Shown here in pieces: positions 8,191-59,448 of a DNA stretch of 64,000 nt. Below the pieces are notes generated by a model. That model made no database searches and was not told where the DNA came from. It saw only the letters and a list, made by a program, of their open reading frames with translations. The stretch's first letter is position 1, and each line of letters opens with the position of its first letter. The stretch comes from Protonemura montana. Lineage: Eukaryota > Arthropoda > Insecta > Plecoptera > Nemouridae. A program made the translations under genes and the position numbers. The stretch spans positions 14,613,001 through 14,677,000 of the forward strand of contig OX387610.1 in the NCBI GenBank assembly GCA_947568835.1, in the 5' to 3' direction.

Positions 8191-11100
8191 CTAGATTTTA
8201 CTCTTTTCTCCCTCTGATAAATCTTCTATTTCAAACAGAGAGAAAGGTTTCTTCAGCAACGGATGCGTTCGTTTCTTCAAGCTGATAATCTTTCCAGTTT
8301 CTTTGTACTCCAGGTATTTTTCGACAAAAGAGCGATTTGTCTCATGCACATATTCGTGACTTAAAAACTCGTCAACCTAGAAAAAAAAACACGTTTATTT
8401 GCAAACTTTCAACTTGCAGCTTGCACATTTTCTAACGGTTTATTACATTTACCTTCATCCATTTGGCTTCCATAATTTCTCTGTCACATTTTTTGATCTC
8501 TGTCGAAACAGGAGCTAATCCCACAACGAAATAGATGTCTGAGCAGTCGAAATTTGCACCGTGTGTGTGCCTGAACGAGACGACAAATTGGAACTTTGTC
8601 TCGATGCTAGTCTCTTCTAAAACTTCGCGTATGGCAGCAACTTCAATGTCCTCACCTGAAATAAAACAAAATGTGCTCGTTGCAGACTGTTTAATATTAG
8701 TAATAAGTACGTACCACTTCAAAAACTGAATGCCATTTCTTGTCATATCACTTGCAGTTACTTAAAATAAGAAGATAAACGTGCAAGAACAACATATTGG
8801 TTACGAAACACATTCAAGAAGTGGCAAGCCAAAAGGTTTTTAAGAATAAAACCGGCAAGTAGGGTCAGGAAGTACAGATTTCACCACTGTCAAATAAAAA
8901 CCAATGTGTTTTTATTAAAGCTTACTTAAGCTTTCCGTGAAATGTTAAAGATATCTTTTTATATTCTGAACTTTGACACCAATTGTTTTTCAGCAAAACG
9001 GATTAGCAGGATAACCATTCAAAGTGTATGAACATATTCATCGAAAATTACATAAACAAATTCATGCACAAATTGTTTTCAAGGCAAGCTTTTAGCGTTA
9101 TAAAATTGAATGAGTATTTGGTGATCTGAAAGTACCTTCAAAAGTACTAATACAGCACATGACTAGCTGTAAAAAAAAAGCATCACACGTACCTGATTCT
9201 ACATAGCCGCCAGGCAGCTTCCAATGAGGGAATCCTTTCGGGAAATATTTCTCCCTCACGACGAGTATTTCTTCAGCGTCGTTGACTACGATTGCACCGA
9301 CTCCAATCATCGTGTGCGCAAATCGAGGTACATTCGACTCTTCGTCCCTTGGCATCCAGCGATACATCATGACATAACCGGACTGAGCGTGGTGGAAAAC
9401 AAAATCGTTCCTAGCGAGAATCGGAACCCAATCCGCATGTTCGGTGGCAACTTTAAACCAGACGCCGCGTAGGTCGCTGCTTGCCCACGCTTCTAAAGAT
9501 TCTGCGTGAAGAAATTAAATGTTAGGTATGTTACTATTATTATTATTATTATTTGTGGTGTTTAACGACGCACTGTTTTGACAACTGGCCCTGCGGCACT
9601 GGTCTAAAGGCGTCGGTGAATGAGTGGATGATGATGAGGATGATGATGAATCTAACCTAGACTAGAAGGGAGGAGGGAAAACCCGGTGCCGGCAGGTAGC
9701 CTACTCCTGTTGAAGACCAAGAGGACCACCGGCTTAACGTCCCTTCCGAAGGACGGTACAGCGCGAACAACAGGATTCCTCCACAAATCCATGCTGTCGA
9801 GAAGTTGATAAGCAAGGCGAGTGAAGTTTCTGTACTAACTTTCATCCCTCCAACCTCTCTCCCGAACAGAACTGGTCATGTGTATAATGGTCACCCATCC
9901 AATACCTGACTCAGCGCAGTGTTGCATAACTTCGGTGATCTAACGAGAACCGGTGTTTCCAACACGACAAACCGTTCGGTGTTAGGTATGTTACATTACG
10001 CCTGCTTTTGTAGATATGTTGCAATCAGAAATCCAAACATAACGTTGTCAACCACGTGGTTCTCATTGGTGTGCAAAGCGTGCCACAGTCACTTTGATTC
10101 CAGTGACGCTATATCGCGTCACATCCATTTTATGTCGAGTGACTCGCAATTTGATGTTGGATACGTTTTATTCTCATAACCTGATAATAATCCAATTTTG
10201 ACAAAGTTGTTTAGTTTCAATTTTGTTGTCAATTTTGTTTTGTTGTCAAAGTTGCAATTGCAAATGCCCAAATTCAGCCCATTGCAAGGATTTGCAACAT
10301 AAATAAAAGGAGGAAAATCGATTTATTAAACAATCGAAAGCTATCCAAATATATGGTTGACCATTAAGGTCTAGCAGGTCTAGCTTACTGATCTATATTA
10401 CAAATACAATTTCTTATTAATAATATTTATGATCATGATATTATAATATTTATGATTATGATTATGGTAATTATGAAGTGTTGTTATAGATGCAAGATGT
10501 GCAAAGATGCAAATTGATGCTCAAAGAACGGCAGGAACTTTAGAGTCAAATATTGAGACTGTCATTCCTGTAATTTGACCAAGTTATTATTTTGTGGTAG
10601 TCTTTGTGCCACCACTTGTGCAAACGCCTAGGGGTGGATTTTGTAAAATCTAGTATTTTTTCCCGACTATTTTTTTACATTAATCGATAACATCAGAGTC
10701 ATGTTGTTTGTTTAAATAGTGTTTTCGACAGCTTATACTGATGCGGTTTTTAAATGCATGACAACGTAATACTCTACGCTGGGTTTCATTGGTTCCATGA
10801 ACAATTGCTCCCACTTGAAGAAGCTGTCCATTCATTTGTCTACAGTGAACCTGCGATCATTTCAAGACCAAAATTTCCTCTGGGTTTTAGGAGTTGCTCG
10901 AGAGCAAGCTTATTCATTGACGTTGCGAATGTTCCATTTGGGCAGGGTCACATGACCAGTTGAACACACTTTTGGTGCTCTCCTGATAGTGTATCAGGGA
11001 AATCAGTTGAAAACAATATAAAATTTATCTTACAGAGGTTGATATGTTCCTACTATACCCACTTATTCATCAACTTGCAAATCTTCTGACCGACTGACCT

Positions 11101-17794: not shown

Positions 17795-17956
17795 GGAAGC
17801 TAGACTGGAAAAATGTGCAACCGAACCGGGTTACGAACCCGGGACCTCCCAATTGCCGGTCGGGTGCTCTACAATTGGGACCGGCTATTGACCGGCAATT
17901 GGGAGGTCCCGGGTTCGTATCCCGATTCAGTTGCACATTTTTCCAATCCAGCTTCC
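17795..17956. repeat. Head-to-head tRNA-like hairpin, 67-bp arms
   Basis: The arms 17795-17861 and 17890-17956 are inverted copies with few mismatches around a 28-nt spacer. Each arm contains a B-box-like GGTTCGTATCCC (the left arm GGGTTACGAACCCGG is its complement) and GTGCAACC/GGTTGCAC-type ends. The same tRNA-like segment occurs singly at 26504-26570, so this is two copies of that element in opposite orientation. Confidence 0.75.
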
Positions 17957-23229: not shown

Positions 23230-23928
23230 CAGACAACTGTGCCGAACGGTTTGGCGTGTTGGTAACACCGGTTCTAGTGAGTTAAACAACACTGCGCTGG
23301 GTCAGGTATTTGATGGGTGACCATCATACACATGACCAGTTCTGTTCGGGAGAGAGGTTGGAGGGATGAAAGTTAAGCAACACTGCGCCGGGTCAGTAAT
23401 TGGATGGGTGACTATCATACACATGACCAGTTCTGTTCGGGAGAGAGGTTGGAGGGATGAAAGTTAAGCAACACTGCGCCGGGTCAGTAATTGGATGGGT
23501 GACTATCATACACATGACCAGTTCTGTTCGGGAGAGAAGTTGGAGGGATGAAAGTTACGCAACACTGCGCTGGGTCAGGTATTGGATGGGTGACCATCAT
23601 ACACATGACCAGTTCTGTTCGGGAGAGAGGTTGGAGGGATGAAAGTTAGTACAGCAACTTCACTCGCCTTGCTTATCAACCTCTCGACAGCATGGATTTG
23701 TGGAGGAATCCTGTTGTTCGAGTTGTACCGTCCTTCGGAAGGGACGTTAAGCCGGTGGTCACCTTGGTCTTCGACAGGAGTAGGCTACGTGCCGGCACCG
23801 GTTGTACACTCCTCCCTTCTTGGCTAGGTTAGGTTCATCATCATCCTCTCATTCACCGACCCCGTTAGACCAGTGCCACATGGCTTGTTATCAAAACAGT
23901 GCGTTGTTAATCACCACAAATCAATCAT
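23230..23928 (+). mobile_element. 5S rRNA-derived SINE with four tandem 5S heads
   Basis: Starts with a 5S-like head (GGCGTGTTGGTAACACCGG, then GAGTTAAACAACAC). The segment from GTTAAGCAACAC through TTGGATGGGTGAC to GGGAGAGAGGTTGGAGGG then repeats at 91-bp spacing, with starts near 23371, 23462 and 23553. The body with CCTTCGGAAGGGACGTTAAG and the tail AATCACCACAAATC follow. Each unit has an A-box-like and a C-box-like 5S element. Immediately downstream lies the truncated LINE. Confidence 0.85.
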
Positions 23929-25200
23929 TGAAAGACGCAACGAGACGAGTTGAAGACGAGTTTTTTACGATTTTATGAAAGCTTTCGACACGGTAGATCA
24001 CAATCTTTTACTACAAAAATTGGAAACGTTGGTATTACTGGCGTTGCGAATGCCTGGATTAGGTCGTATTTAAAAGATCGCAAACAAGTTGTGAACATCA
24101 GACGAGAGGGTAATGACTATCTCTCAAATGAACTAACAATCAACGTTGGACTTCCGCAAGGCTCGGTTATTGCTCCTTTAATGTTTTCACTGTTCACCAA
24201 TGATCTACCCACCGAAATTACAGAAGGCAAACTAACACTCTTCGCGGACGACACTACCCACCTGATTAAATCCTCTAATTCCGACAAATTATGTATGGAA
24301 ACAAATTCAGCGGTCTCTCAAATTGAGAAGTGGGCCCGCAAGAACAATCTATTTCTGAACCATGAAAAAACAGTTGTAATAAGATTTAAGGCAAATCAAA
24401 AAGAGGAAAGTAGCACGCTTATCTGGATGAATAACAGAAGTATTGTGGAAGGAGCTGAAACTAAACTGCTGGGGATAATGATAGACAAAGAACTAAACTG
24501 GAAAAGTCACATCAACATGGTATGTAAAAAGATTGCAAGCAATTGTTTTCTTATAAAAAAATTAATGGATGTCATATCGCTAAGCCTAGTAAGAGTGGTT
24601 TATTTCTCCCATATCCAAGCAATTCTCGGATACGGCATAGCACTTTGGGGGTGGTCTCCCCACACGAAAAGGCTTTTCAAATTACAGAAGCGAGCGGTTA
24701 GAATAATGATAAAGGCTAGTCGGGATCCATGTGCGGAATTTTATTATAAGGACTCGTGCGTTACGTTTTTTAAAAAACTGGAAATTTTAACTTTGCCGTG
24801 TCTATATATATATAGCACAATTATATATCTCATTGACAATTGTAGCAATATACAAACCATTGACGATGTGCACGATCATTATCTTAGAAATAAAAAGGAC
24901 ATCAGGCAAAACATGCATAAAATAGACAAATGGTCTAGAGGACCAACAGAAATGGGCGCCAAATTTTTTAACAGATTACCAGGATCGATCAAATGTAAAG
25001 ATGGCCTGGCTTTTAAAAACGCACTGAAGGATTATTTATTAAAAAATTGTTTTTATTCGGTTGACACCTTTTTAGAACATAAAGAGTAACTTATACACTC
25101 TATGTAGATTATGTTATTATGTACCTGACTTTCCAAATGTTATTTTGTGTAACCAATTATGGAAGAAAATAAAATGAAATGAAATGAAATGAAATGAAAC
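23929..25200 (+). pseudogene. 5'-truncated non-LTR retrotransposon (LINE), reverse transcriptase 3' part
   Basis: RT motifs are present in order: MKAFDTVDHNLL (in another frame), GLPQGSVIAPLMFSLF, and the catalytic LTLFADDTTHL. The thumb-like C-terminal region follows (LGIMIDKELNWKSHI, WGWSPHTKRLFKLQKRAVR). One frameshift lies near 24020-24030, where KLETL changes frame before GITGVANAW. The open part then runs to TAA at 25087-25089. The 3' end carries AATAAAATG followed by an AAATG repeat (about 25170-25200), typical of LINE tails. Endonuclease and ORF1 are missing, so this copy is dead. Confidence 0.9.
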
Positions 25201-27328: not shown

Positions 27329-27870
27329 ATTGAGTTTATAGGTACAGTTAGAGAGCCAGCGTTTATGCTTTACTTTCAACTAAACAACCGAGGCCGGTAA
27401 AATATTTTGATAACGGTAGGTGCCACCCGATGGCGCTTGCTGCTGAGCAAACGAGGCCGGCAACACGTGGTAACGGTAGGTGCCACCCGATGTCGCTTGC
27501 TGCTGAGCAAACGAGGCCGGCAACACGTGGTAACGGTAGGTGCCACCCGATGGCGCTTGCTGCTGAGCAAACGAGGCCGGCAACACGTGGTAACGGTAGG
27601 TGCCACCCGATGGCGCTTGTCCTTTTTAACAAACCTCTACAATTAAATAATAACGGCTCAAAATATCGCGATACATGTTTATCAATCGTTGAGGTTAGCA
27701 TTAATAAAGATTAATTGAGTGTAAACCAGACTCAAATGCGAGTAATCTGCGAGAAATAACGGAAAGAAATTTCTTAAAAATCAAATAGACGAGACTCCAT
27801 CTTGCAGCAGTAATCATTTATTTTTGTCACGGCAAAGCAATCATTTGACGGCCATTTTCCACGAAGTTAA
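27329..27870 (+). mobile_element. Family B element with four 60-bp units
   Basis: TGAGTTTATAGGTACAGTTA at the left, then four units of GGTGCCACCCGATGGCGCTT plus GCTGCTGAGCAAACGAGGCC at exact 60-bp spacing (about 27416, 27476, 27536, 27596). The 3' module follows, with ATCAATCGTTGAGGTTAGC, GCGAGTAATCTGCGAGAAAT and CATTTGACGGCCATTTTCC. Long repeat-encoded ORFs on both strands are by-products of the 60-bp period. Confidence 0.85.
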
Positions 27871-30383: not shown

Positions 30384-30893
30384 CATCATACACATGACCA
30401 GTTCTGTTCGGGAGAGAGGTTGGAGTGCTGAAAGTTAAGCAACACTGCGCTGGGTCAGGTATTGGATGGGTGACCATCATACACATGACCTGTTCTGTTC
30501 GGGAGAGAGGTTGGAGTGATGAAAGTTAAGCAACACTGCGCTGGGTCAGGTATTGGATGGGTGACCATCATACACATGACCAGTTCTGTTCGGGAGAGAG
30601 GTTGGAGGGATGAAAGTTAGTGAAGCAACTTCACTCGCCTTGCTTATCAACCTCTCGACAGCATGGATTTGTGGAGGAATCCTGTTGTTCGCGTTGTACC
30701 GTCCTTCGAAAGGGACGTTAAGCCGGTGATCCCCTTAGTCTTCGACAGGAGTAGGCTACGTGCCGGCACCGGGTTTCCCCACCTCCCTTCTAGGCTAGGT
30801 TAGATTCATCATCATTCACTCATTCACCGACGCCATTAGACCAGTGCCGCATGGCCAGATGTCAAAACAGTGCGTCGTCAAACACAACAAATA
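30384..30893 (+). mobile_element. 5S rRNA-derived SINE with two complete tandem heads, 5'-truncated
   Basis: Units starting near GTTAAGCAACACTGCGCTGG at about 30434 and 30526 each contain TATTGGATGGGTGACC. The body (GGACGTTAAGCCGG) and the tail AACACAACAAAT end at about 30893. The first 5S half-head is missing. Confidence 0.82.
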
Positions 30894-31479: not shown

Positions 31480-31995
31480 TTTAAAATTTTATTATTAACA
31501 ACACTATAACCGTCTTAAAAATTGATGCCCAAATGCTGACTCGAACCCCGATCTCCACCTGTCGCGGGTGTTGCTCTGAACCATTGAGCTACTTGGACAC
31601 CGATCTCTACCTGTCGCGGGTGTTGCTCTAACCAATTGAGCTACTTGGACCCTGATCTCCACCTATCGCGGGTGTTGCTCTAACCAATTGAGCTACTTGG
31701 ACCCCGATCTCCACCTATCACGGGTGTTGCTCTGAACCATTGAGCTACTTGGACCCCGATCTCCACCTGTCACGGGTGTTGCTCTAACCCATTGAGCTAC
31801 TTGGACCCCGATCTCCACCTGTCGCGGGTGTTGCTCTGAACCATTGAGCTACTTGGACCCCGATCTCCACCTGTCACGGGTGTTGCTCTGAACCATTGAG
31901 CTACTTGGACACTGGCTTTTTTAGATGATTTTAGTGTATTTGATGAGAATGACAGTTCTCCTAGGAGTAGAACCATGTGGCTGTGAATAGTGTTG
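31480..31995 (-). mobile_element. tRNA-derived SINE (family T1) with seven tandem tRNA 5' heads
   Basis: On the minus strand a leader (TTCTACTCCTAGGAG, CACTAAAATCATC) leads to seven tandem units of about 52 bp. Each reads GTCCAAGTAGCTCAATGGTT then CAGAGCAACACCCGCGACAG, the tRNA A-box half. Only the last unit continues to a B-box-like GGGGTTCGAGTC, then GGGCATCAATTTTTAAGACG and AATAATAAAATTTT. Related copies at 55565-55890 and 51636-52012 define the family. Confidence 0.8.
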
Positions 31996-33949: not shown

Positions 33950-34600
33950 CAGTGAGTTTATAGGTACAGTCAGAGAGCCAGCGTTATTGTTAAACTTTCT
34001 GCTGAGTAAACGAGGCAGGTAACACGTGGTAACTGTAGGTGCCACCCGATGGCGCTTGCTGCTGAGCAAACGAGGACGATAACGCGTGGTAACGGTAGGT
34101 GCCACCCGATGGCGCTTGCTGCTGAGCAAACGAGGCCGGCAACACGTGGTAACGGTAGGTGCCACCCGATGGCGCTTGCTGTTGAGCAAACGAGGCCGGC
34201 AATATGTGGTAACGGTAGGTGCCACCCGATGGCGCTTGCTGCTGAGCAAACGAGGCCGGCAACAGATGGTAACGGTAGGTGCCACCCGATGGCGCTTGCT
34301 GCTGAGCAAACGAGGCCGGCAACAGATGGTAACGGTAGGTGCCACCCGATGGCGCTTGCTGCCGTTCTTTTTAACAAACATCTACAATTAAATAATAACG
34401 ACTCAAAATATCGCGATACGTGTTTATCAATCGTTGAGGTTAGCATTAATAAAGATTAATTGAGTGTAAACCAGACTCAAATGCGAGTAATCTGCGAGAA
34501 ATAACAGAAATTTCTCAACACTCGAAGCGACAGTGTCTCCATCTGGCGGCATCTTACATTTTTGTCGCGGTAAAAGCAGTCATTTGTCGGCCATTTTTAG
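33950..34600 (+). mobile_element. Family B element with six 60-bp units
   Basis: GTGAGTTTATAGGTACAGTC at the left. Units begin near 34031, 34091, 34151, 34211, 34271 and 34331 (exact 60-bp spacing), with variants such as AACGCGTGG, AATATGTGG and AACAGATGG. The 3' module runs to CATTTGTCGGCCATTTTTAG. Confidence 0.87.
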
Positions 34601-34794
34601 AATTTAACTAAAGCTGTACGGAAAAATATCCTGTTTCATCGATATTCCGTGTCGTGGACATCGTTATGACGCATGATTTATTATAATTTATCGCTTGGAA
34701 AAAAAAAGTTGCATCTGGAGATGATGTGTGATGTTTTTTTTATTCAATTTCATGCGCTTCGTTAAACTCTAGGTTCTAAGCACCGGAAGGTATT

Positions 34795-35655
34795 GAATGG
34801 GTGACCATTATACACATGACCATCATACACATGACCATCATACACATGACCATCATACACATGACCATCATACACATGACCATCATACACATGACCATCA
34901 TACACATGACCATCATACACATGACCATCATACACATGACCATCATACACATGACCATCATACACATGACCATCATACACATGACCATCATACACATGAC
35001 CATCATACACATGACCATCATACACATGACCATCATACACATGACCATCATACACATGACCATCATACACATGACCATCATACACATGACCGTCATACAC
35101 ATGACCATCATACACATGACCATCATACACATGACCATCATACACATGACCATCATACACATGACCATCATACACATGACCATCATACACATGACCATCA
35201 TACACATGACCATCATACACATGACCATCATACACATGACCAGTTCTGTTCGGGAGAGAGGCTGCAGGGATGAAAGTTAAGCAACACTGCGCTGGGTCAG
35301 GTATTGAATGGGTGACCATCATACACATGACCAGTTCTGTTCGGGAGAGAGGTTGGAGGGATGAAAGTTAGTACAGCAACTTCATTCGCCTTGCTTATCA
35401 ACCTCTCGACAGCATGGATTTGTGGAGGAATCCTGTTGTTAGCGTTGTACCGTCCTTCGGAAGGGACGTTAAGCCGGTGGTCCTCTTGGCCTTCCACAGG
35501 AGTAGGCTACGTGCCGGCACCGGGTTTCCCCCTCCTCCCTTCTAGGTTAGGTTAGGTTCATCATCCTCATCATCAACCACTCATTCACCGACGCCATTAG
35601 ACCAGTGCCACATGGCCAGATGTCAAAACAGTGCGTCGTTAAACACAACAAATAG
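34795..35655 (+). mobile_element. 5S rRNA-derived SINE containing a 15-bp x 29 tandem array
   Basis: GACCATCATACACAT is repeated 29 times without a break at 34803-35237. It has one C-to-T change in the first unit (GACCATTATACACAT) and one A-to-G change (GACCGTCATACACAT) near 35090. The 15-mer is exactly the junction sequence present once per 5S head in other copies. One normal head (GTTAAGCAACACTGCGCTGG), the body and the tail AACACAACAAAT follow. ORFs of 150-188 codons in the array are artefacts of the period. Confidence 0.88.
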
Positions 35656-37667
35656 TAATAATCTAAGCACCGGAGTCTGCTGGTCACAGGTATCTCACTG
35701 GCAGTGTGCGATGTGCCGTCGGTATTCAAGAGTCAGATTAATCTTGTAAGGAGATGCAAAGGAGAAGAGAGAGAGACGGAAAGGGAAAGAGAATGGAAGG
35801 CGGCAACAGTAAAGCAGAAAAAAAGGTACAATAAAAGTGTAACAACCTGAGACTGCCGCGTGTAGAAAAAAAGAATAAAAATAATCAAACAAACAAACTG
35901 GATGTCTGTTGTGAGTTCTTACCAAATGAGTCGGCAACGCGGCGTGGAAGGAGATGGAAGAAAGGTAACAAAAAAAATCAAATGTGATAAACTGTAGACA
36001 TTGTTGTGTGTCCACGTTTAATATTAAAGCGTTATGTAAATTTAAGTATCTTCTCGGAATTGGTGAATTTAATTTATAATAAGCTGTGAACTATTTATTT
36101 TCATTTTTCTTCCATCTCATTGTTGGACGACCGGCTTGTCGTTTGAATGCGCGCGTTTGATTTATGAATAATAATACCGAAACGATTGCGATTGTGCTGC
36201 GGACGTTTTGACTAAGAATTATTTTTATTTTGAAATCATGGCACCTCATCAACCAACAATGGATGTTTATTTCATTGCGCAAATCGTGACTTCAGAAGGC
36301 TTTTTGCTCGATTCGTTTTTCCCCCAGTTTTTTTCTTTATTTTTTTTTTCGTAGATTTCTTGAGAATATCGTTGATAGCTTTGTGATTGCTGGTGATGTT
36401 CGTGCTCGTGTTTTTCCCGACGCAGATGTTGAAAATATGTTGATGACTTCAGGCGTTACGACGACACTTTTTTTAAAAAGTAAGCGTTGGGGTAAATTGC
36501 CACCTCGTTACCTGCCTAGCGTAACAGATTGCTGTGATGATGGATTTACAAAATAAAAGTCTGTGCCGTGAATTACTTAAGTTGGTGAAGGGAAACCATG
36601 ATGGATCATTAAATTAAATATAATATTAACATAAAATAAAATAAAATAAACCATTGTTCGAGTCAAAGTTGTTATGTGACACATTTCTTGAGCAAAAAAG
36701 ATGAAGGAAAACCAGAAATTTCCTAAAAAATTAAAAAATATAAAGTGGATTTGAGTTATTCTTATTAGTAAAGAGTGTTTTTTTTTCAAGTTTACGAATT
36801 ATCGTATAATTGGCAGGATGTAAGCAGGAAACCACAAAAAAGTGTTCCTATTTCGGGAATCGAACCCCAGTCTCCAGCTTTTGCGGTTTTTATACCCGGG
36901 GTTCAAGTTCCCTTACAAGAAAACATATTTTTGGGATTTTTAAGAATATTTTTTTTGGTTTATTTATGGGAAATCTACATATTTCTCGCTATAGTCCGCT
37001 TTCCACATCGTTATTTGCTTATCCCACACGCTTAGATTTTTAATATCATAATGGCACATCTCAATAATATTATTTACTGGAATAATTAAGTTCTTGACTT
37101 CATATGGACAGACTCATACGATCCTAATCACGTGTCAATTCTTCAAAAAACGCCACAACAAATCCGACTTAATCCTCATAAAAAAAACCCAAATCCCACA
37201 CCGACCACTCCGAATCGAAACCCCCACCTTTATAATTTCGACAGAGCACCTTCTCTCAGAGCTCTGTTTAGAGCAACAAGTCGCCTCGGGTGTATCACGT
37301 TTAGTCGCTAACGTTCATCCACTCGGCCACATCCTTGCATGGGCTCAACGCACGGAATCTTCTGCTAGGGACAGGTGCTTATTACATAGACCCCTCGGTA
37401 AATAAAGAAGCAAGATGCACGGCTTCTTTATTCGGCTCCAATTTCAAATCAAATTTACAAGCTAAAGCCCTCGGATTTAAGTGCAGAATAATGCGGTGTT
37501 TGTAGGTAAATCGACAAAGTGACCCACAGTGATTTCGTACCAATTTGTTCAGAGATTTTCTGGAGTTATAATAATAGAATTTGAATTTGTTGGAGATAAA
37601 ATATTTAACTTTATAACAACAGTTTGTTTTTCTTCGAAATATTGCTTAAATGAATCACCAAAATGCA
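35656..37667. other. Intergenic DNA, no gene recognised
   Basis: GGGAATCGAACCCCAG at about 36856 is a minus-strand B-box (GGGGTTCGATTCCC) without a matching A-box, perhaps a tRNA-derived remnant. No supported ORF. Confidence 0.4.
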
Positions 37668-38460
37668 GCATAGGATCCAGCCAGCTGATCTCAAATAACC
37701 TGGATAGAGCATAGGATCCAGCCAGCTGATCTCAAATAACCTGGATAGAGCATCGGATCCAGCCAGCTGATCTCAAATAACCTGGATAGAGCATAGGATC
37801 CAGCCAGCTGATCTCAAATAACCTGGATAGAGCATAGGATCCAGCCAGCTGATCTCAAATAACCTGGATAGAACATAGGATCCAGCCAGGTGATCTCAAA
37901 TAACCTGGATAGAGCATAGAATCTAGCCAGCTGATCTCAAATAACCTGGATAGAGCATAGAATCCAGCCAGCTGATCTCAAATAACCTGGATAGAGCATA
38001 GGATCCAGCCAGCTGATCTCAAATAACCTGGATAGAGCAAAGGATCCAGCCAGCTGATCTCAAATAACCTGGATAGAGCATAGAATCTAGCCAGCTGATC
38101 TCAAATAACCTGGATAGAGCATAGAATCCAGCCAGCTGATCTCAAATAACCTGGATAGAGCATAGAATTCAGCCAGCTGATCTCAAATAACCTGGATAGA
38201 GCATAGGATCTAGCCAGCTGATCTCAAATAACCTGGATAGAGCATAGAATCTAGCCAGCTGATCTCAAATAACCTGGATAGAGCATAGAATCCAGCCAGC
38301 TGATCTCAAATAACCTGGATAGAGCATAGAATCCAGCCAGCTGATCTCAAATAACCTGGATAGAGCATAGAATTCAGCCAGCTGATCTCAAATAACCTGG
38401 ATAGAGCATAGGATCTAGCCAGCTGATCTCAAATAACCTGGATAGAACATAGGATCCAGT
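37668..38460. repeat. 41-bp minisatellite, about 19 units
   Basis: The unit CATAGGATCCAGCCAGCTGA then TCTCAAATAACCTGGATAGAG repeats without interruption. The variable positions are mainly GGATCC/GAATCC/GAATCT/GAATTC. Variants recur in the same order further along, suggesting higher-order duplication of blocks of several units. Confidence 0.95.
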
Positions 38461-43223: not shown

Positions 43224-44010
43224 GCTTATAGGTATATAGTTAGAGAGCCAGCGTTAATGTTAAACTTGCTGCTGAGTAAACGAGGCCGGCAACACGTGGT
43301 AACGGTAGGTGCCACCCGATGGCGCTTGCTGTTGAGCAAACGAAGCCGGTAAACCGTAGTAACGGTAGGTGCCACCCGATGGCGCTTGCGGCTGAGCAAA
43401 CGAGGCCGGCAACACGTGGTAACGGTAGGTGCCACCAGATGGCGCTTGCTGCTGAGCAAACGAGGCCGGCAACACGTGGTAACGGTAGGTGCCACACAAT
43501 GGCGCTTGCTGCTGAGCAAACGAGGCCGGCAACACGTGGTAACGGTAGGTGCTACGCGATGGCGCTTGCTGCTGAGCAAACGAGGCCGGCAACACGTGGT
43601 AACGGTAGGTGCCACCCGATGGCGCTTGCTGCTGAGCAAACGAGGCCGGCAACACTTGGTAACGGTAGCTGCCACCCGATGGCGCTTGCTGCTGAGCAAA
43701 CGAGGCCGGCAACACGTGGTAACGGTAGGTGCCACCCGATGGCGCTTGCTATTGTCCTTTTTAACAAACCTCAACAATTAAATAATAACGACTCAAAATA
43801 TCGCAATACATGTTTATCAATCGTTGAGATTAGCATTAATAAAGATTAATTGAGTGTAAACCAGTTTCAAATGCGAGTAATCTGCGAGAAATAACGACAA
43901 TAAAATTTCTTAACACTCGAAACGACGGTGTCTCCACCTGGCGGCATCATACATTTTTGTCGCGGTAAAGAAGTTATTTGGCGGCTATTTCTCGCTAAGT
44001 CAGTTTAACA
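43224..44010 (+). mobile_element. Family B element with eight 60-bp units
   Basis: Units at about 43301, 43361, 43421, 43481, 43541, 43601, 43661 and 43721, with single-base variants (CAAAT, ACACAATGG, CTACGCGATGG). The 3' module runs from AATATCGCAATACATG to TTATTTGGCGGCTATTTCTC. It is the largest array of the family here. Confidence 0.88.
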
Positions 44011-47302: not shown

Positions 47303-47730
47303 CGTTGAGTGTGTAGGTACTAGGTAGAGAAACAACGTCAATGTTACAGTCTCTGCGTGAAAGATGACCGCCAAATGACTACCTTACCGACAAAAATGCA
47401 GAGTACCGGAACGTCACGTTAAGTGGAGCCACTGTCGTATGAAATTTAATTTCGATATTTCTCGTAGGTTAACTCGCTTTTGAATATCGTTACGTGTATA
47501 TCAATCGTTGAGGTAAACATTGATACAGATTTTTTGAGTATGAAAAGTCTCCAAAGCGAGTTAAACTACGAGAAATATCGAAATTAAAATTCATACGACA
47601 GTGGCTCCACTTAACGTGATGTTCCGGTACTCTGCATTTTTGTCGGTAAGGTAGTCATTTGGCGGCCATCTTTCACGCTGAGACTGTAACATTGACGTTG
47701 TTTCTCTACCTTTAACCTGCACACTCAACG
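47303..47730. mobile_element. Foldback element family A, copy 1, with 7-bp target duplication
   Basis: Arms of about 178 bp start CGTTGAGTGTGTAGGT and end in the inverse CACACTCAACG. CTGTCGT lies immediately outside both ends (47296-47302 and 47731-47737). The loop contains ATATCAATCGTTGAGG. It lies about 100 bp upstream of the exon holding the start codon of the two-helix membrane protein gene. Confidence 0.82.
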
Positions 47731-47855: not shown

Positions 47856-50800
47856 ATGGCTACAATAATGTCCAGGTATCCACGCTATCCCTACCAGAGT
47901 ACGACCATCCCCAACGTGCACGTGACCGGTCCTCATCATCAGGCCAACCACCACCAGCACCACCAACAGCATCATCAACAGCATCATCAACAGCACCACC
48001 AGAATCACCACCAGAATCATCACCAGCAGAACCATTTTCAACCGAATCATCATCAGCAGAATCACCAAAATCACCAAGTCCACCAAACTCTCAGGTAATT
48101 AGTGGTGTTTGACAACTCACTGGTTTTATGGCGTCGATGAATGAGTAGATGACGACGAAGCTAACCTAGCCTAGAAACGAGGAGGGGAGACCCGGTGCCG
48201 GCACGTAGCCGACTCCTGTCGAAGACCAAGGGGACCACCGGCACAAAGGACGGTACAACGCGAACAGCAGGATTCCTCCACAAATCCATGCTGTCGAGAA
48301 GTTGATAAGCAAGGCGAGTGAAGTTGCTGTCGAGAGGTTGATAAGCAAGGCATGTGAAGTTGCTGTCGAGAGGTTGATAAGCAAGGCGAGTGAAGTTGCT
48401 GTCGAGAGGTTGATAAGCAAGGCGAGTGAAGTTGCTGTCGAGAGGTTGATAAGCAAGGCGAGTGAAGTTGGTGTCGAGAAGTTGATAAGCAAGGCGTGTG
48501 AAGTTGCTGTCGAGAGGTTGATAAGCAAGGCGAGTGAAGTTGCTGTCGAGAGGTTGATAAGCAAGGCGAGTGAAGTTGGTGTCGAGAAGTTGATAAGCAA
48601 GGCGAGTGAAGTTGGTGTCGAGAGGTTGATAAGCAAGGCGAGTGAAGTTGGTGTCGAGAGGTTGATAAGCAAGGCGAGTGAAGTTGGTGTCGAGAGGTTG
48701 ATAAGCAAGGCGAGTGAAGTTGGTGTCGAGAGGTTGATAAGCAAGGCGAGTGAAGTTGCCGTACATTTTGTCCATGGTTTACCGATTGCTACCGTGTGCA
48801 AATACCTTCGGTTGGTACTAATTTCGACTCACGTTACGCTTTGCATAAAGCGGAAAAATTAAATGCAATATCAGTTTGAACCATCGCGATCCTATTAACC
48901 TCTCAGCCAATCTCTTTAAAAAACATGCGTCTACCGAAAATATATATTCTGTTTGTTCGGGCCATTAATTTTGAAGGTCATGTTCCTATACTGCATTCGT
49001 GAAGGAGAATCGCGTCGGTCATTATTTTAAGTCAAATGTCATCAGTCTCCTGGCTGAGCCCCAGCTCGGGGTTGAGTCTAGCACCTACCAATCTACAATA
49101 TGTTCACTCTTGGGTCACCAAAAATTACAGTCTTTTTATTAGGCATGAGAAGAATAAATATAGGCAGTTATTGATTATAAGCAGATGCATCAGACTAATG
49201 ATTTTCTTGGAAACGAACGGAAAATTCCCCGGAAATTGCTAGCATTTATGATTTTCAGCTGTTAACTGCAAATATTAGCTCTCCTATTGTGTATGGCTGG
49301 GACCAACTGCCGGATACAGTTAACAAACATCAGTGAAGAACCCATATTTGGGCACTTAGCTCGTTATTGGATTGGGTACAAAAGGTTTTGTCGCAGACCT
49401 AGTTAATGTGTCAGCTAGCTGGGATCGGTCCTGGTTGTCTGCAGACAGGAACCATCGAGTTGTTAGGTATGTCAGGGGGTCAGCGTCAATGGTTAGCTGA
49501 GTAAACGAGGCCGGCAACACGTGGTAACGGTAGGTGCCACCCGATGGCGCTTGCTGCTGAGCAAACGAGGCTGGCAACACGTGGTAACGGTAGGTGCCAC
49601 CCGATGGCGCTTGCTGCTGAGCAAACGAGGCCGGCAACACTTGGTAACTGTAGGTGCCACCCGATGGCGCTTGCTGCTGAGCAAACGAGGCCGGCAACAC
49701 GTGGTAACGGTAGGTGCCACCCGATGGTGCTTGCTGCTGAGCAAACGAGGCCGGTAACACGTGGTAACGGTAGGTGCCACCCGATGGCGCTTGCTGCTGA
49801 GTAAACGAGGCCGGTAACACTCGGTAACGGTAGGTGCCACCCGATGGCGCTTTCTGCTGAGCAAACGAGACCGGTAATACTTGGTAACTGTAGGTGCCAC
49901 CCGATGGCGCTTGCGGCCGTCCTTTTTAACAAACCTCCACCAAAAAAAAATTACGACTCAAAATATCGATAAATTTATATCAATCGTTGGATACGCACTA
50001 GCGTAAACCAGTCGCAAATGTTTCAAATACAAGCAATATCGAAATACAACTATTTAACACTCGAAAAGACGTTGACTCCACCTACATTTTTGTCGGTTGA
50101 GAAGTCATTTGGTGGTTATTTTTCGCGAAGACAGATGAACATTAGCGCTATCTTAATTCTTAGTAATAATAATAATAGTTTTATTGTATGCGACACGTCA
50201 GTGGTTAATACCTACAATACACCTTAACTTCCAAGGTTAATACACCTAACTTCCATTAAGAAACTCGCTAACAGAATACGCACAGAAAGCTGTACGCAGG
50301 AAGCTTTTGGTCAAACATCTTTTGGTCAACATCATGCATCGGCCTGATAGCGAGACCAGACCGCTAGAAGTACCAAACTTCCATCAGTATCTGAAGAGCA
50401 AACAGAGTTTAGGGAAGTGAGATTGGAGATAGCCGAGCTTAGAGCGACGCTCGAGCACACAATAGAATTGCCGGCTTGCTCTCTGCTCAATTCAGACAAT
50501 AGACTATTAACGTAAGGTGCCCCCCCTCCCGATCACTGCATGACGTCGGTACATAGCGCACTTAGGAGGGAGGTTGTCGGGGCACATGCGGTCGAGACAT
50601 GATTTTATCCTGCTTCACGGTGAGGTTATGTTGACGATATTATGTCATAATTCTGTTGATCTATTCTCCCACTTGTGAGTTTTTAAAACTCTGTATTAAT
50701 TGACACAAGTCATGTACTTTGCCCTTACATTTTCGTGGTTTTTTAAGTTGATTTTGAAAGGTTCATTTAAGACTATAAATATCCCAAGAAGTGAAAATGC

Positions 50801-53800: not shown

Positions 53801-56800
53801 AGTAGTGGATGGTTTATCGTGTCGAATGCTCGGGAGTAGTCTAGTAGTATTAGACTCGTGACTTCTGCTGCTTCCATGGCACGAAGTATGTCATCTGACA
53901 CATCTAGTAGCACTGTGGTGGTACTATGATTCTTCCGGAATCCTGACTGGGTGTCTGGGAGGATATTGTTTTTCTCAACATGTTCACTGAGTTGTTTATG
54001 TACTGCTTTCTCCAGTATTTTTGACATGGTTGGTAATATAGTGATTGGACGCAGGTCTTTGTGTTGTTTAGGGTGGCACACCTTTGGGATCGGAGTGATG
54101 AGTCCTATTTTCCATAGGTCAGGGCACTTGCCTGTGGACATAGAGTTGTTTATGACATTTGTTATAGCTTGGGCACAGGCTGGAAGAGAAAGGTATATCA
54201 TTTTTAGGGAGATTCCGTCTATGCCTGTGGCATTTGTCTTGATGGTCTGGATTATCTTCAGGGTGTCAGAGGTGCTGATGGGCTGGAAGTTCAGGGTTGT
54301 TTTGGTGTTGTGGTCGGTTGTCGTGCCTGTACAGCTGTCTATTATCTCTGCTTTGACAGTGTGTTGGCCTGCTGCTTCTATGTAGTACGAGTTCAGCTGG
54401 TCGGGGTCACTAAGTTCCTCTGGGATGTCTTGTTGTTCTCCTCCTCGTTTGCTGTGTATATCCCACTTCTCCAAATTGTTCCAGAATTTCTTTGGGTCCT
54501 TTTTGCATTTTAAGAGAGTAGACACTATGTATGCCTGCTGTTCTCTATGTACTGCTCCGTTTGTGTAGTTTCGAAGCTCGGCATAATATTTCCATGCTGC
54601 CGTGAGGTTGTTTCTTTTGAATTTTTTCAAGGCATCGTCCTTTAATTTTATCATGATTTGTATCGTACCAGTGAGCCAGGGTGTACTGCGTTTTGATGTG
54701 GACATAAATTTTATTGGGGCAAAGATGTCTGCTACATTTATTATGTGGCTGTTTAGTGTCTTCACCTTTTCGTTGATGTCTTCCGTGTTATATATTTCTT
54801 CCCACGGCATGTTATTGGTATATTCTTCCAACATTTGAATATTGATTCCTCTGTAGTTTCTCCCGGTCCAGGATCGTCTGGGATTTTTCGTTTTGTGGTA
54901 TCGTAGGGTGCACGATACCAGGTGGTGGTCCGTTATTCCTTGTCCCTTCTCGTCTAGTATACTAGTCATGTCTAGTACCTCTGTTCCAATAACAGGGTTG
55001 ACATCCCTAATATATATGTGGTCTATCAGGGTGGCACTTGTTTCTGTGATCCGAGTAGGTAGCTTTATTATTTGCACTAGATTGTTTTCTCTAAGGAACT
55101 TGGTGATGAATTTTGATGAACATTGGCAAATGCTAGCAGGCACTTGTTTCTTGTGATTGGTCGTAGAGTCAAAGACCTAATAAATTAATTGACTGTCGAA
55201 TTTCAACGTGAAAATCCACACAGAATATCGAATTGAGATCAAAACAGTTATAGCAAGATGACGAAGCAAGTATTAATAGCCTATAACACTCATTCTAATT
55301 GTAGTTTGGGACAAAAGCTCAGAGCAAAGATCTGTTTAACAGTTATTCATGAATCAACAGTCATTGTGGTAGCTGAGATGACAACAATCAGTAAGCAATT
55401 AAAACTGGTCTCAATTCCTCGGTCAGAGTACAAGTCTCCTAATCTTCAATACCAGTTCTAATTTTCAGTTTTTCAAAGTTTATCCTCTTCAATTCTACCA
55501 AAATTAACTTATCGTACCGTTAGACAGACTTTCCAACAACCAATCCATTATAATTACAAGATGACAATAATCGTAACTCGGTAGTTATTCGAGTTTGACA
55601 GGTTGTGACGTGATATAGCGTCACTAGAATCAGAGTGACTGTGAGTATTCACAGCCTCTTGGTTCTACTCCTTGGAGATCCGTAATTCTCATCAAATACA
55701 CTAAAATCGTCTCAAAAAGCCAGTGTCCAAGTAGCTCAATTGGTCAGAGCAACACCCGCGACAGGTGAAGATCGGGGTCCAAGTAGCTCAATTGGTTAAA
55801 GCAACACCCGCGACAGGTGGAGTTTGGGGTTTGAGTCCCCGTTTGGGCATCAATTTTTGAGACGGTTGTAGTGTTTATAATAATAAAATAAACAGAACAT
55901 GTTCTTTCTCGACTTGATAATGGGCGCTAAATGACTGTCCCATGCAGCATCTATAAATCGCCCTTCTATACAATTATCCTAAAATAAAGCTCGTACAACA
56001 TTTATGTAGTTGTCAGTAACCAAAGAAGTAAACATTGTTACAAATGCTTGCAGTGGTGGTGGACGGTCCCGGTCGCCACAGCATTGCTCCGCTGCTGCCG
56101 CCAGCGCCGTCGAGCGGAGGTACGAGCGCGCCGACCGTTGCTCGGTGCTCGGGCTCGTCTCGCGCAGCGTCCGATCGACCAAACACTCCGAGCTCGCCCG
56201 GCGGACACTCGGCAGCAGTCGACGGCTGCGGTGGACACTGCGTCGCTTGCGAGACCTTTTGCTACTACTTCCTGCAGGTAGATTCATGGCAAACGCATTG
56301 ATCCTGACCTCGGTCATTGGGTTCTTAGTCATAGACTTGGTCTGAACTTTGGACGTCTGTTTTAAGTGTAATACCTGGTAATACCATTGAGTGCAAGTTC
56401 TAGGTAGAGAAACAACGTCAATGTTACAGTCTCTGCGTGAAAGATGACCGCCAAATGACTACCTTACCGACAAAAATGCAGAGTACCGGAACGTTACTAG
56501 TTACTACTTAAGTGGAGCCACTGTCGTATGAAATTTAATTTCGATATTTCTCGTAGGTTAACTCGCTTTTTAATATCGTTACGTTTATATCAATCGTTGA
56601 GGTAAACATTGATGGAGATTTTTTAAGCATGAAAAGTCTCAAAAGCGAGTTAACCTACGAGAAATATCGACATTAAATTTCATACGACAGTGGCTCCACT
56701 TAACGTGATGTTCCGGAACTCTGCATTTTTGTCGGTAAGGCATTCATTTGGCGGCCATCTTTCACGCAGAGACTGTAACATTGACCATGTTTCTCTACCT

Positions 56801-59448
56801 ATAACCTACACTCAACGATGAAACCGAAATAACGGAACATGAATCACTTAAAATAAAGTACAGAGTGTACTTATTATTATTAGGAGTAGATTAGCTTGAA
56901 ACCTGTTGAAAGTACAAGCGTAAGAGAACGTACTGGTTATAAAAAGTAGCCTGCATCATGGCGGTTTATCTCCAATCATAATGTCCAAAAGACGCTTGTA
57001 ATTTAAAACCCACGACCGCAACTAAATTTCCCCTCCGTGCACGCAGGTGATCTTCACGTTCGGGATCCTGGCTGGCGTGTCGTTGACGATCGCGGGCAGC
57101 GTTCTACGCAGCCAGCAGCGTGGCGGCGACCTCCTCGTGCTCGTCTACATCGGGTGCATGACAGCGATGGTCTGCTCGCTGCTGCTCTCCGTGCAGTGCT
57201 GCGTGCGGAGAAACGTGAAGAGACGGAAGCGATCCATGCGGAGCCAGCGAAACCAACGGCGGGTGGCGCACACCTCCGAGATACCCATGCAGGTCGGTAC
57301 AGCGCGCCAGGTGATGCAGGTCGCGTCATTTGCATGCCTCCGCATGCATGGGTATCTAACCCATGCACCCATGGGTATCATGGGTATTATGGGTATCTGG
57401 GTATCTGACCTAGTGCAAGTCGAAGTTCTGGGATTATGGTTCTCGCCACCGAAGTTAAGCAACACTACACTAGGTCAGGTATTAGAAAAGTGACCATCAT
57501 ACACATGACCAGTTCTGTTCGGGAGAGAGGTTGGAGGGATGAAAGTTAAGCAACACTGCGCTGGGTCAGGTATTGGATAGGTGAGCATCATACACATGAC
57601 CAGTTCTGTTTGGGAGAGAGGTTGGAGGGATGAAAGTTAAGCAACACTGCGCTGGGTCAGGTATTGGATGAGTGACCATCATAAACACGACCAGTTCTGT
57701 TCAGAAGAGAGTAGGCCAGTGCCACAAGACCGGTTGGCAAACATATTGCTGTTAAAAAATACAAGTCCAATCTCAGACAAGTCACCTTGTGTAAGTCAAG
57801 TGTACGTACACTTTTCAGCTCTTCTTCTTATTGCATCAATCTCGTGCAATTTGTCTTTGGTGTAGATAACTGAGTTTTTGTATTGCTTTATTTTGCTTTA
57901 CAGTGGTTTGTGGTTTCTTTATGGGGCTTTATGGTTGGATGACATCAGTAAATGTCGGGTTACAACGACCACGCCAACCAAGTTTGCTGTTGTGACATTA
58001 CCACAAAACTTTATTGCTTAAAACCTTGGAAACACACCAATCATTTCCCATTAACTTTCTAATGAAAAAAAGTCACCATCTAAATCTTTATTTTACTATC
58101 TTTAATTCCTTTCTACTTGTAACACTTTCACAAACAAAAGCAGATTCTGCTTCTGGTAATTTTGTAAACACGTTGTCGTCTATTTGCTGTTTAACCGAGC
58201 GGTCTTTTTTCAGGACATGGGAACGTTGAAAGTAATGCAAGGGCCAATGGCGCGAGGAGACCTGGCCGTAGGAAGCCATCGACAGCACCAGCAATACCAA
58301 CCTTTGCTCATGCACATCGTGCAGCAACAGCAACAAGGCAACGCTGCTGTCGTGGTGGACAACCTGCCTCAGCAGCAGTACCACCACACTGCAACCTATA
58401 GGTAGGTGACGTGTTGGTTTCCCAGAATTTTTACATGTATTTCTTGTGAGACACACTTTAAGGTTGGTACTACCAGAAAAAGCTGACTGGAAGCTAGAGC
58501 TAGAGTGGTGAGAGTGGGTGGCACGGGATTTTAACGACCAGTTTTAAAATATTCACTTAAAGAAGTTAACATTAGCTTTTTCAGTAGCATAGGTGCCAGC
58601 AGAAACAATAACAAATCACTTTCTTAAAGTACCACTTCTCCAATTTTCACTTAAGTTAGATAAAATCTTATTTAAGTTGCAAACGCTTGCAATGCGTGGG
58701 GTATTTTATTATTATAAACACTATTTTTGTAGTGTATAAAGTGTTTATAGAAATATTATCATTGAGATGGTTAAAGTGTTCATTCATTCAAGTTTTGCTT
58801 CTCATGGCTAATTTCACTAACATCAGATTAAACTTAGTTTCGGTCCAAGATTTCATTTTCTCGCAATCAACATTTTGTGAATTTAGGCAACGTACTCAAA
58901 ACAAGAAAAGAAAAATAGTTTTCAGCACAGAGTTATCAAACGGCATGTTTTTGATATAACGTTACAGTTTTGTCGGGTACTGTTTTCTTTGAAGTCGAAG
59001 AGATTTTATAAATTTAAACCTCTATCAGTCCAGGTTCAAATTTGAAAAGGAGACGAGCACGAAGAGGAAATGTCCACAAAATTGTAACGGAAGGGTGTCT
59101 TCTTGAATGAATTGTAAATTTCCATTATTTTTTATCATTTGTTTAACTGTCATTGTTGAAGTTTTTCAAAATATCAGAAAATCTAAACAAATTAATTTGA
59201 CTTTTGACTCAAGTTAAGCTTTCACTTATTCAGCATCTTGGCTACTCAAAAACAGAAACAGACAGAACTATTATAAATCACACCACGGCATTATCACGCA
59301 CCTAACCCTAACTTCTGACATTCACAGGTCTGGCAACACGACAGACACGTCTGGCTTCGTCGGACGGATGCTCGATGTTTCTCGTAGTGGTACTCCCTGG
59401 TGGCGGAGACACGCAGAGATGGCGCCACACGTTGAATCAACACACTGA
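47856..59448 (+). CDS. Unrecognised two-helix membrane protein with His/Gln-rich N-terminus, six exons
   Basis: Exons 47856-48094, 52111-52316, 56054-56277, 57047-57292, 58214-58401 and 59328-59448 give 1224 nt (407 residues plus TGA) with consistent phases. An in-frame TGA at 47853 fixes ATG 47856 as the start. The exon begins after TTTTATTGCAG (47831), so a 5' untranslated exon lies upstream. Residues about 30-75 are His/Gln/Asn-rich (HHQQHHQQHH). A Ser/Pro-rich stretch follows, then CGGHCVACETFCYY, helix 1 (VIFTFGILAGVSLTIAGSVL, about 224-243) and helix 2 (LLVLVYIGCMTAMVCSLLL, about 252-270). A basic cluster (RRNVKRRKR) and a Gln-rich tail complete it. Cytoplasmic ends and membrane residence are inferred. 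The exon 4 end is uncertain: in-phase donors also exist at 57311 and 57320, after CAG. No family was recognised. Confidence 0.75.
48103..48765 (-). mobile_element. 5S-SINE fragment containing a 36-bp x 13 tandem array, abutting a splice donor
   Basis: The SINE 3' end (inverse of AACACCACTAAT) starts within about eight bases of the exon 1 donor GTAATT at 48095. The body core is degraded (GTCCTTTGTGCCGG instead of the GGAAGGGACGTTAAG core). Then GAGAGGTTGATAAGCAAGGC plus GAGTGAAGTTGCTGTC repeats about 13 times at 36-bp spacing (48296-48765), drawn from a segment present once in other copies. No 5S head remains. Long ORFs (186-211 codons) are period artefacts. Confidence 0.85.
49452..50135 (+). 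mobile_element. Family B element with seven 60-bp units, in intron 1 of the two-helix protein gene
   Basis: Starts GAGTTGTTAGGTATGTCAGG. Units lie near 49526, 49586, 49646, 49706, 49766, 49826 and 49886. The 3' module is more diverged than in other copies (ATCAATCGTTGGATACGC, GTCATTTGGTGGTTATTTTT). Confidence 0.85.
50136..51635. other. Intron 1 sequence, no feature recognised
   Basis: No supported exon, RNA gene or repeat. A GC-rich spot is at about 50515-50585. Confidence 0.45.
51636..52012. mobile_element. tRNA-derived SINE family T1, rearranged copy
   Basis: It has an inverted tail fragment (TATTATTATGAACACTAAAA...CTCTCAAAAATTGGTATCC) at about 51640-51690, and a forward leader and head (GTGAGTATTCACAGCCTCGTGGTTCTACC, then TGTAGCTCAATTGGTTGGCC and AGGGTTCGATTTCCC) at about 51807-52000. 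The tail and head are in opposite orientations, suggesting two fragments or an internal inversion. A 15-bp inverted pair, TTAGAGAAAATAATA and its partner, lies at about 51835-51870. Confidence 0.6.
52553..55178 (-). mobile_element. 5'-truncated Jockey/CR1-like LINE in intron 2 of the two-helix protein gene
   Basis: Reading the minus strand, endonuclease-domain remnants start at about 55178. A reverse transcriptase frame ends at 52705, and the element finishes with AATAAACATATATACATACA, a polyadenylation-like signal plus a short CATA repeat typical of non-LTR tails. The 5' half (ORF1 and most of the endonuclease) is missing, the usual result of incomplete target-primed reverse transcription. 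Inserted antisense to the host gene. Confidence 0.9.
52705..55143 (-). CDS. Endonuclease (C-terminal part) plus reverse transcriptase of the LINE, open but N-terminally truncated
   Basis: 812 open codons; the first codon is GTG and no true start survives. The end of the endonuclease domain is seen in LPTRITETSATLIDHIYIRD. RT motifs follow in order: ITPIPKVCHPKQHKDLRPIT, YSRAFDTINHPLLIKLL, SGVPQGSILAPLLFTIYTAD and KIKQFADDTQIYYSF, whose FADD carries the catalytic aspartates. A C-terminal region with LNIKQREHITPGIRRAGWL follows. The uninterrupted frame suggests recent insertion. The truncation leaves it unable to move by itself. Confidence 0.88.
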   Translation of the reverse strand: MPASICQCSSKFITKFLRENNLVQIIKLPTRITETSATLIDHIYIRDVNPVIGTEVLDMTSILDEKGQGITDHHLVSCTLRYHKTKNPRRSWTGRNYRGINIQMLEEYTNNMPWEEIYNTEDINEKVKTLNSHIINVADIFAPIKFMSTSKRSTPWLTGTIQIMIKLKDDALKKFKRNNLTAAWKYYAELRNYTNGAVHREQQAYIVSTLLKCKKDPKKFWNNLEKWDIHSKRGGEQQDIPEELSDPDQLNSYYIEAAGQHTVKAEIIDSCTGTTTDHNTKTTLNFQPISTSDTLKIIQTIKTNATGIDGISLKMIYLSLPACAQAITNVINNSMSTGKCPDLWKIGLITPIPKVCHPKQHKDLRPITILPTMSKILEKAVHKQLSEHVEKNNILPDTQSGFRKNHSTTTVLLDVSDDILRAMEAAEVTSLILLDYSRAFDTINHPLLIKLLSNICSEGATQEWFTSYLTRRSQSVVVKHGTTQKQSSLLNIPSGVPQGSILAPLLFTIYTADLPSIIKGCKIKQFADDTQIYYSFKPQDTPAALAVINSTLADILKWSSERALIINPSKTVSLLFGTNTQRAKTMELNFKITIDGTDIKLSDNARNLGLIMDSNLNYAAHVTSLRNKARFKLRSLYRFKAILPPTAKIILCDSLILSQINYCALVYGPGITKNNFKHLQKIQNSCARYSLNIKQREHITPGIRRAGWLKMAERLKLQALCTIHRTLVTGKPDYLKRKLNKRSDLHDINIRSKGQISTQHHRTKKYCASFTHFGTSLYNLLPEKTKTYGPEKFKKEVKKMYQLEDEKSDLQA
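55565..55890 (+). mobile_element. tRNA-derived SINE family T1 with two tandem heads
   Basis: The leader GTGACGTGATATAGCGTCAC...GTATTCACAGCCTCTTGG leads to two heads of GTCCAAGTAGCTCAATTGGT plus GCAACACCCGCGACAGGTG, about 52 bp apart. The second continues to GGGTTTGAGTCCCC, then GGGCATCAATTTTTGAGACG and TAATAATAAAATAAA. The orientation is opposite to the seven-head copy at 31480-31995. Confidence 0.78.
56385..56817. mobile_element. Foldback element family A, copy 2
   Basis: Arms and loop as in copy 1 (TAGGTAGAGAAACAACGTCA, CGATATTTCTCGTAGGTTAA, TCAATCGTTGAGGTAAACAT), ending CTACACTCAACG. A small extra block, TTACTAGTTACTACTTAAG, sits in the left arm. No target duplication was found. It lies in intron 3 of the two-helix protein gene. 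Confidence 0.8.
57398..57720 (+). mobile_element. 5S rRNA-derived SINE, tandem heads only, body missing
   Basis: The first head is the most 5S-like stretch in the window: GTTCTCGCCACCGAAGTTAA, then GCAACACTACACTAGG. Two 91-bp-type units with TATTGGATAGGTGAGC and TATTGGATGAGTGACC follow. The sequence breaks into the tail-like AGTAGGCCAGTGCCAC at about 57710, so the body is deleted. It is in intron 4. Confidence 0.75.

Follow-up and report, generated by a model that had tools for sequence, protein, structure and literature searches.

Tandem arrays of the 5S rRNA-derived head of a SINE in Protonemura montana, probably expanded as minisatellites near chromosome ends

Results

The window analysed here is a stretch of 64,000 nucleotides of Protonemura montana (assembly GCA_947568835.1, contig OX387610.1, hereafter C13, positions 14,613,001-14,677,000) from a genome of 258 Mb in 34 contigs, and coordinates without a contig or locus name are those of the window. 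An initial annotation had placed at 23230-23928 a SINE derived from 5S rRNA with four 91-bp promoter heads in front of one body, and this was confirmed: the copy at 23230-23925 on the plus strand consists of a leader, four heads and a body. The leader (23230-23279; cmscan, BLAST and sequence) is the 5S-like 5′ half (about positions 1-48 of 5S) and has lost a short internal stretch. Together with the first head (23241-23351), it aligned with positions 1-120 of the Rfam 5S rRNA model at 35.9 bits, just below the gathering score of 38. Head unit 1 (23280-23370; Tandem Repeats Finder and BLAST), 91 bp from the A box to the linker, is followed by unit 2 (23371-23461) and unit 3 (23462-23552), both delimited by sequence and BLAST, and by unit 4 (23553-23643; BLAST), which abuts the body. 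BLAST returned four full units over 23280-23643 and the body over 23650-23925, and Tandem Repeats Finder reported a period of 91 bp, 4.1 copies and 95% matches over 23280-23648. The body with its 3′ tail (CACCACAAAT) occupies 23644-23925 (BLAST and flank comparison). Heads 2 and 3 have changes in common that are absent from heads 1 and 4, and unit 3 is a near-copy of unit 2 (23371-23552), which points to a local duplication. No target-site duplication of this copy was recognisable when its flanks were compared. Directly 3′ of the SINE, an open frame of 385 aa (23932-25089) encodes part of a reverse transcriptase domain (PF00078, E 1e-15) and is probably what is left of a LINE.

Other copies of the SINE in the window carry different numbers of heads. 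The copy annotated near 9549 indeed has one head; it spans 9551-9980 on the minus strand with a 15-bp target-site duplication (BLAST, sequence and flank comparison) and served as single-head reference, and its 9860-9980 part scored 54.9 bits against RF00001 in cmscan, above the gathering score of 38. The two complete heads reported at 30384 were also found: the plus-strand copy at 30384-30892 starts inside a head, at unit position 44, continues with two full heads and the body, and has a 10-bp target-site duplication flush with the cut (BLAST and flank comparison). For the several heads reported at 57398, two full heads and a 77-bp third are present, but the extent had to be corrected to 57452-57711 (plus strand; Tandem Repeats Finder and BLAST), and most of the body is absent. 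Two copies had been overlooked, both delimited by Tandem Repeats Finder and BLAST. The first, at 34788-35653 on the plus strand, starts inside a head at about unit position 26 and contains some 29 tandem copies of a 15-bp piece from the C-box region (34802-35242), one full head and the body, with a 13-bp target-site duplication recognised by eye. The second, at 48118-48764 on the minus strand, is headless, and the first segment of its body, which is 36 bp long and promoter-free, is repeated about 13 times.

The basic anatomy was derived from two single-head copies with target-site duplications, the one at 9551-9980 (minus strand) and one at another locus (L046). The basic element is about 430 bp long and comprises 48 nt of 5S 5′ half, one 91-bp head, and a body ending in ACAAAT(AAT)n. 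For the promoter boxes we used Xenopus 5S numbering, which we take to be 50-64 for the A box, 67-72 for the IE and 80-97 for the C box, equivalent to unit positions 2-16, 19-24 and 32-49. Plain arrays repeat the 91-bp part and not the leader; therefore, by homology, each inner head has the A, IE and C boxes but no 5S 5′ half. The annotated A-box-like and C-box-like elements of each head stand by this homology, with box positions that depend on the assumed numbering. The head at the 5′ end is homologous to 5S rRNA and the element is short, dispersed and multicopy with target-site duplications, as in a 5S-derived SINE of the SINE3 type. Exact target-site duplications of at least 10 bp adjoining the start were detected by script in 5 of 30 copies, and two more were seen by eye, in the 34788 copy and, with one mismatch, in L046. 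As for the 5S rRNA genes, 47 matches were scored in the genome, and the full-length ones cluster on contigs C11, C15 and C23, on C11 from its very start.

When the 258-Mb genome was searched with at most one mismatch, there were 22,412 matches to the head-head junction and 7,127 to the head-body junction, while reversed controls gave 0, indicating that these junctions are not due to chance. Exact leader and body tags, which miss diverged copies, recovered 1,037, 242, 198 and 70 copies with 1, 2, 3 and 5 heads, the classes counted, and the common form of the SINE is the one with a single head. Four of the 100 matches listed for the two-head tags are not two plain heads and represent a 92-bp variant in which the leader and unit positions 1-44 are repeated; three of its loci recur in the three-head list. 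In L042 (3133-3637 and 9465-10000), this variant has the 5′ end of the element joined behind position 44, so that unit position 44 appears in two places, at this junction and at the start of the 30384 copy. The longest array in our sample, in L034, runs to 21 complete units plus a partial unit.

We then compared where copies with different head numbers lie along contig C1 (33,122,741 bp, 33.12 Mb), for which the lists cover every exact-tag copy with 1, 2, 3 or 5 heads. The terminal 4.2 Mb on either side held 32 of 72 single-head copies, 19 of 20 two-head copies, all 9 three-head copies and 6 of 7 five-head copies. Farther inside, 40 of the 72 single-head copies stood against 1 of the 29 with two or three heads (Fisher P=3e-7, with a cut chosen after the lists had been seen). 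Cuts at 2.5, 3.3 and 5 Mb gave P values from 4e-7 to 2e-5 for the same comparison, and a Mann-Whitney test gave P=5e-7. In the whole genome, 68 of the 70 five-head copies were near contig ends where 32.9 were expected, and none of 20,000 simulations reached 68; in this test, ends other than those of C1 were set at the largest position in any list, that is, at lower bounds that make a few copies terminal by construction. In the lists, five-head copies on large contigs clearly cluster toward both ends and leave a wide stretch between them empty. The largest position recorded on C13 is some 0.46 Mb away from the window, which is thus probably in an end region. Among the matches listed for C1 below 29.0 Mb, the first 1.9 Mb contained 20 of 35 head-head loci versus 14 of 88 head-body places (P=1e-5), and 15 of the 35 head-head loci were interior, 7 of them in one repeated segment. 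With contig ends taken as chromosome ends, and length known only for C1, the arrays show the subtelomeric preference expected of SINE-derived satellites (sSats).

The repeated interior segment of C1 is represented by L031, L040, L032 and L033 (20.98, 22.42, 23.32 and 26.09 Mb), all with arrays of the 5S SINE. In three of these loci it exceeds 6 kb, in L033 it is partial, and some of its copies have arrays of a tRNA-type SINE in or near them. The inverted array pairs at these four places were considered as the ends of one foldback transposon, which was rejected, as they look like separate SINE insertions in a repeated segment. One SINE insertion present in four paralogous segments has 13, 6, 5 and 3 heads, the three-head one without its 5′ flank, and a second insertion common to three of them has 10, 9 and 10 heads. 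In the 10- and 9-head pair, the 5′ flanks had 7 mismatches over 1,500 bp, and the 3′ flanks had 43 over 1,470 aligned bp. Unit number therefore varies at one site as in sSats, here between paralogous, not orthologous, sites, and the unit is, again as in sSats, a part of the SINE joined to a SINE end.

The borders of the units were examined in the two single-head copies. The 91- and 15-bp units are bounded by direct repeats of 6 bp and the 36-bp unit by a repeat of 4 bp; in the body starting at 23644, a 6-bp border repeat of the 36-bp unit (ACAGCA) was seen by eye. Random borders had a repeat of at least 6 bp in about 0.2% of cases and of at least 4 bp in 1.6-1.7%. At the border of the 92-bp unit no matching direct repeat was found, the pair tested being 89 bp apart and out of step with the period. 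The border repeats, the differences in head number between paralogous segments and the changes common to heads 2 and 3 of the reported copy point to duplication and loss at the DNA level.

Heads differed by 4.7% within arrays and by 5.6% between arrays (175 units from 36 arrays, paralogous loci included), and the nearest relative of a unit was in its own array for 29% of 150 units, compared with 4% by shuffling. Each of the 20 arrays with at least three heads held at least one variant that also occurs in at least four arrays at other loci, and some of these variants sit at a CpG site, where recurrent changes are possible. Such cross-locus variants do not suit a fresh in-place expansion from a single head. 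They call for old arrays, for exchange among loci, or for multi-head templates that were inherited; a recent burst explains the sharing less well than old arrays that had exchange among loci, or mixed arrays that were inherited. Full homogenisation of arrays, as in some sSats, was rejected on the closeness of the within- and between-array values, the 21-unit array itself differing by 5.6%. The accessible part of the report on squamate sSats describes homogenised units as a mark of abundant, long arrays and not of all sSats (PMC10702118). Fixed head types by position (first, inner or last) were likewise rejected, since the consensus was identical and differences were weak, at sites 23 and 47 of 91. 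An association of high head number with old, diverged copies alone, which the initial annotation had named as counter-evidence to function, was not seen when head number was compared with body divergence (rho -0.21, P 0.30, n=25 including one headless copy, paralogous L032 and L040 dropped).

We also analysed the promoter boxes of 147 units from 32 arrays, the paralogous L032 and L040 having been dropped beforehand. Locus-weighted divergence was 0.051 for the boxes together versus 0.033 for the rest of the head, with 0.020 in the A box, 0.089 in the IE and 0.063 in the C box. Without site 22, boxes exceeded the rest by 0.011 (95% interval -0.002 to 0.024), and in an earlier test, whose box limits were one base off, non-CpG box sites were more variable (P=0.02). 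Selection on the boxes together was thus not seen in two tests, and the A box alone was less diverged.

Three copies, those at 30384 and 34788 and one in L036, begin inside a head and continue with one to seven full heads, and their target-site duplications, 14 bp in L036, are flush with the cut. A single-head template cannot yield such copies without later conversion, indicating that multi-head RNAs have sometimes been copied. The few multi-head copies in the C1 interior suggest, nevertheless, that retrotransposition of arrays is not the main route. The 30384 copy starts 48 nt before its next head, which equals, within 1 nt, the spacing from the 5′ end of the element to head 1, unlike L036 and 34788, which start at unit positions 53 and about 26. 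Reading inner start sites from these 5′ ends was given up, with one fit in three and too few copies. Among full-length copies, a two-head one (L044) and a four-head one (L033) have target-site duplications of 14 and 15 bp.

Pieces other than the 91-bp head are repeated as well. The junction of the promoter-free 36-bp body unit was found 2,456 times (control 0), and on C1 all 70 exact places, from 7 loci, were in the last 2.02 Mb. Moreover, part of the head (52 bp) of an unrelated tRNA-type SINE is repeated seven times at 31486-31989 (minus strand) and twice at 55725-55849 (plus strand), as found with Tandem Repeats Finder and cmscan; 55777-55849 matched the tRNA family at 36.4 bits (gathering score 29). 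By eye, the A-box part is present in the 52-bp piece and the B-box part is absent. Its junction occurred 12,144 times in the genome (control 0). The 100 matches listed were all on C1, with 86 at 0.54-1.12 or 30.70-31.75 Mb and 14 between, an apparent end bias that refers to copies with the repeated piece.

Discussion

We propose, with a probability of roughly 75%, that the multi-head copies are SINE-derived minisatellites that grew near chromosome ends by DNA-level expansion. In chromosome-end regions, short direct repeats within the SINE would permit slippage or unequal exchange. AAGTTA occurs where the head starts and, 91 bp further on, at the head-body junction, and misalignment of the two could turn one head into a tandem array, which would then grow and shrink like a minisatellite. 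An environment rich in exchange may account for the concentration at contig ends. The repeated promoter would be a by-product, as pieces of 15, 36 and about 92 bp of the same element, and the piece of the other SINE, are repeated too. Some expanded copies were in addition retrotransposed, so that arrays also spread, to a small extent, through RNA. Against the proposal stand the variants common to arrays at different loci, the interior head-head loci of C1, the 92-bp unit without a matching border repeat, and the uneven minisatellite load of the end loci with arrays.

An unlikely alternative is a mobile multi-head subfamily, in which a dimeric or polymeric master is transcribed and retrotransposed and the bias to ends reflects insertion or survival. 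The truncated copies argue for templates of at least two heads, the target-site duplications of full-length two- and four-head copies agree with mobility, and a 91-bp junction present more than 22,000 times, with variants common to arrays across loci, would also be expected. However, single-head copies outnumber each multi-head class counted and occur all along C1, where multi-head copies are almost confined to the ends; head number differs among paralogous segments, and the promoter-free unit is end-biased too. In a dimeric SINE the multi-module form is the main mobile unit, and here single-head copies predominate in the exact-tag counts and are spread along C1.

Rather more doubtful is a mixed course, a mobile minisatellite whose heads expand in the end regions while inner 5S-type promoters also start shorter multi-head RNAs that are reverse transcribed. 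If true, head number would be passed on by both DNA exchange and retrotransposition. In its favour, unit position 44 is both where the 30384 copy begins and where the 92-bp variant is joined to the 5′ end of the element.

The initial annotation had suggested that several Pol III promoters in one SINE could increase transcription or allow shorter RNAs to be initiated at inner heads. A functional role of this kind, with tandem type 1 promoters favoured during amplification for more RNA or inner starts, appears very unlikely to us. Each unit has the three boxes by homology, the A box is the least diverged part and the 30384 copy keeps the 48-nt spacing before its next head, all of which would suit it. 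Nevertheless, the suggestion found no support, as the boxes taken as a group show no better conservation than other sites, the IE and C boxes being more diverged than non-box sites; the promoter-free 36-bp unit and, by eye, the A-box-only 52-bp unit were amplified too; the occurrence of multi-head copies is linked to chromosomal position; the 5S 5′ half is missing from inner heads; and two of the three truncated copies start elsewhere. Collapse or expansion of repeats in a draft assembly is highly improbable, for although tandem arrays are difficult to assemble and these are known from assembled contigs alone, hundreds of copies have only 2-5 units, unit variants change along arrays, and truncated copies have target-site duplications.

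In Alu and Twin, each element has more than one RNA-derived module, a fixed number that is amplified as such; in contrast, the present SINE has anything from a single head to more than 20, and the number depends on where in the chromosome a copy lies. As dimeric or twin-headed SINEs, Alu is named in the accessible text of PMC10702118 and Twin of Culex in that of PMC3272025. The closest likeness is to the squamate sSats, for which the same part of PMC10702118 describes units that are fragments of a SINE and, in snakes, contain a promoter box, along with several unit types, a clear subtelomeric preference and unit numbers that differ at some orthologous loci. Tandem units from part of a SINE, several unit types, end preference and varying unit number are all found here. 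The squamate units differ, so far as described there, in containing box B of a tRNA-like head and in mostly keeping one SINE end, whereas the present SINE has a 5S-type head, many arrays lie between both SINE ends, and some arrays have been retrotransposed. 5S-derived SINEs are known in fish, mammals and insects, for example HaSE3 of Helicoverpa, which shares with this SINE a 5S-like head with A, IE and C boxes, an unrelated body and some target-site duplications; tandem heads are not described for it in the available sections (PMC3272025). Minisatellites derived from transposable elements include the mouse B1 VNTR, whose array was seeded by a short repeat inside the SINE, but with a 6-bp unit and in another SINE, according to the accessible part of PMC9659126. 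Our literature search, largely without subscription papers, found no description of tandem-headed 5S SINEs. As far as these searches show, the 5S-type head, the commonness of arrays between both SINE ends, the retrotransposed arrays and the parallel in a second SINE are new.

These arrays extend SINE-derived satellites to a SINE of 5S type, and one genome holds two unrelated SINE families with arrays of head parts. Insertions with head numbers from 1 to above 20 exist by the thousand, and some have target-site duplications, so that the passage from a dispersed repeat to a satellite can be counted step by step. Any effect of tandem type 1 promoters also becomes testable with them.

Besides its 91-bp arrays, the window has 88 bp of minisatellite per kb. 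The corresponding values were 0-37 for six interior stretches picked blind to arrays, 50-156 for five array loci of the interior, and 0-367 for nine loci at the ends of C1, of which four have at most 21 bp per kb. The array loci were picked for having head arrays, so these values indicate co-occurrence in many loci, not an unbiased gradient. A 60-bp minisatellite occurs at four places in the window (27411-27619, 33995-34362, 43265-43750 and 49496-49914), and a 41-bp one, found at 37667-38459 (19 units) and in a C1 end locus (L041:906-2626, 49 units), forms a dispersed family. A 292-bp unit is repeated about four times at 60449-61648. Finally, long near-perfect hairpins at 17827-17924, 47425-47607 and 56508-56701, whose matches to miRNA families were below the cut-offs, are probably small inverted-repeat transposons.
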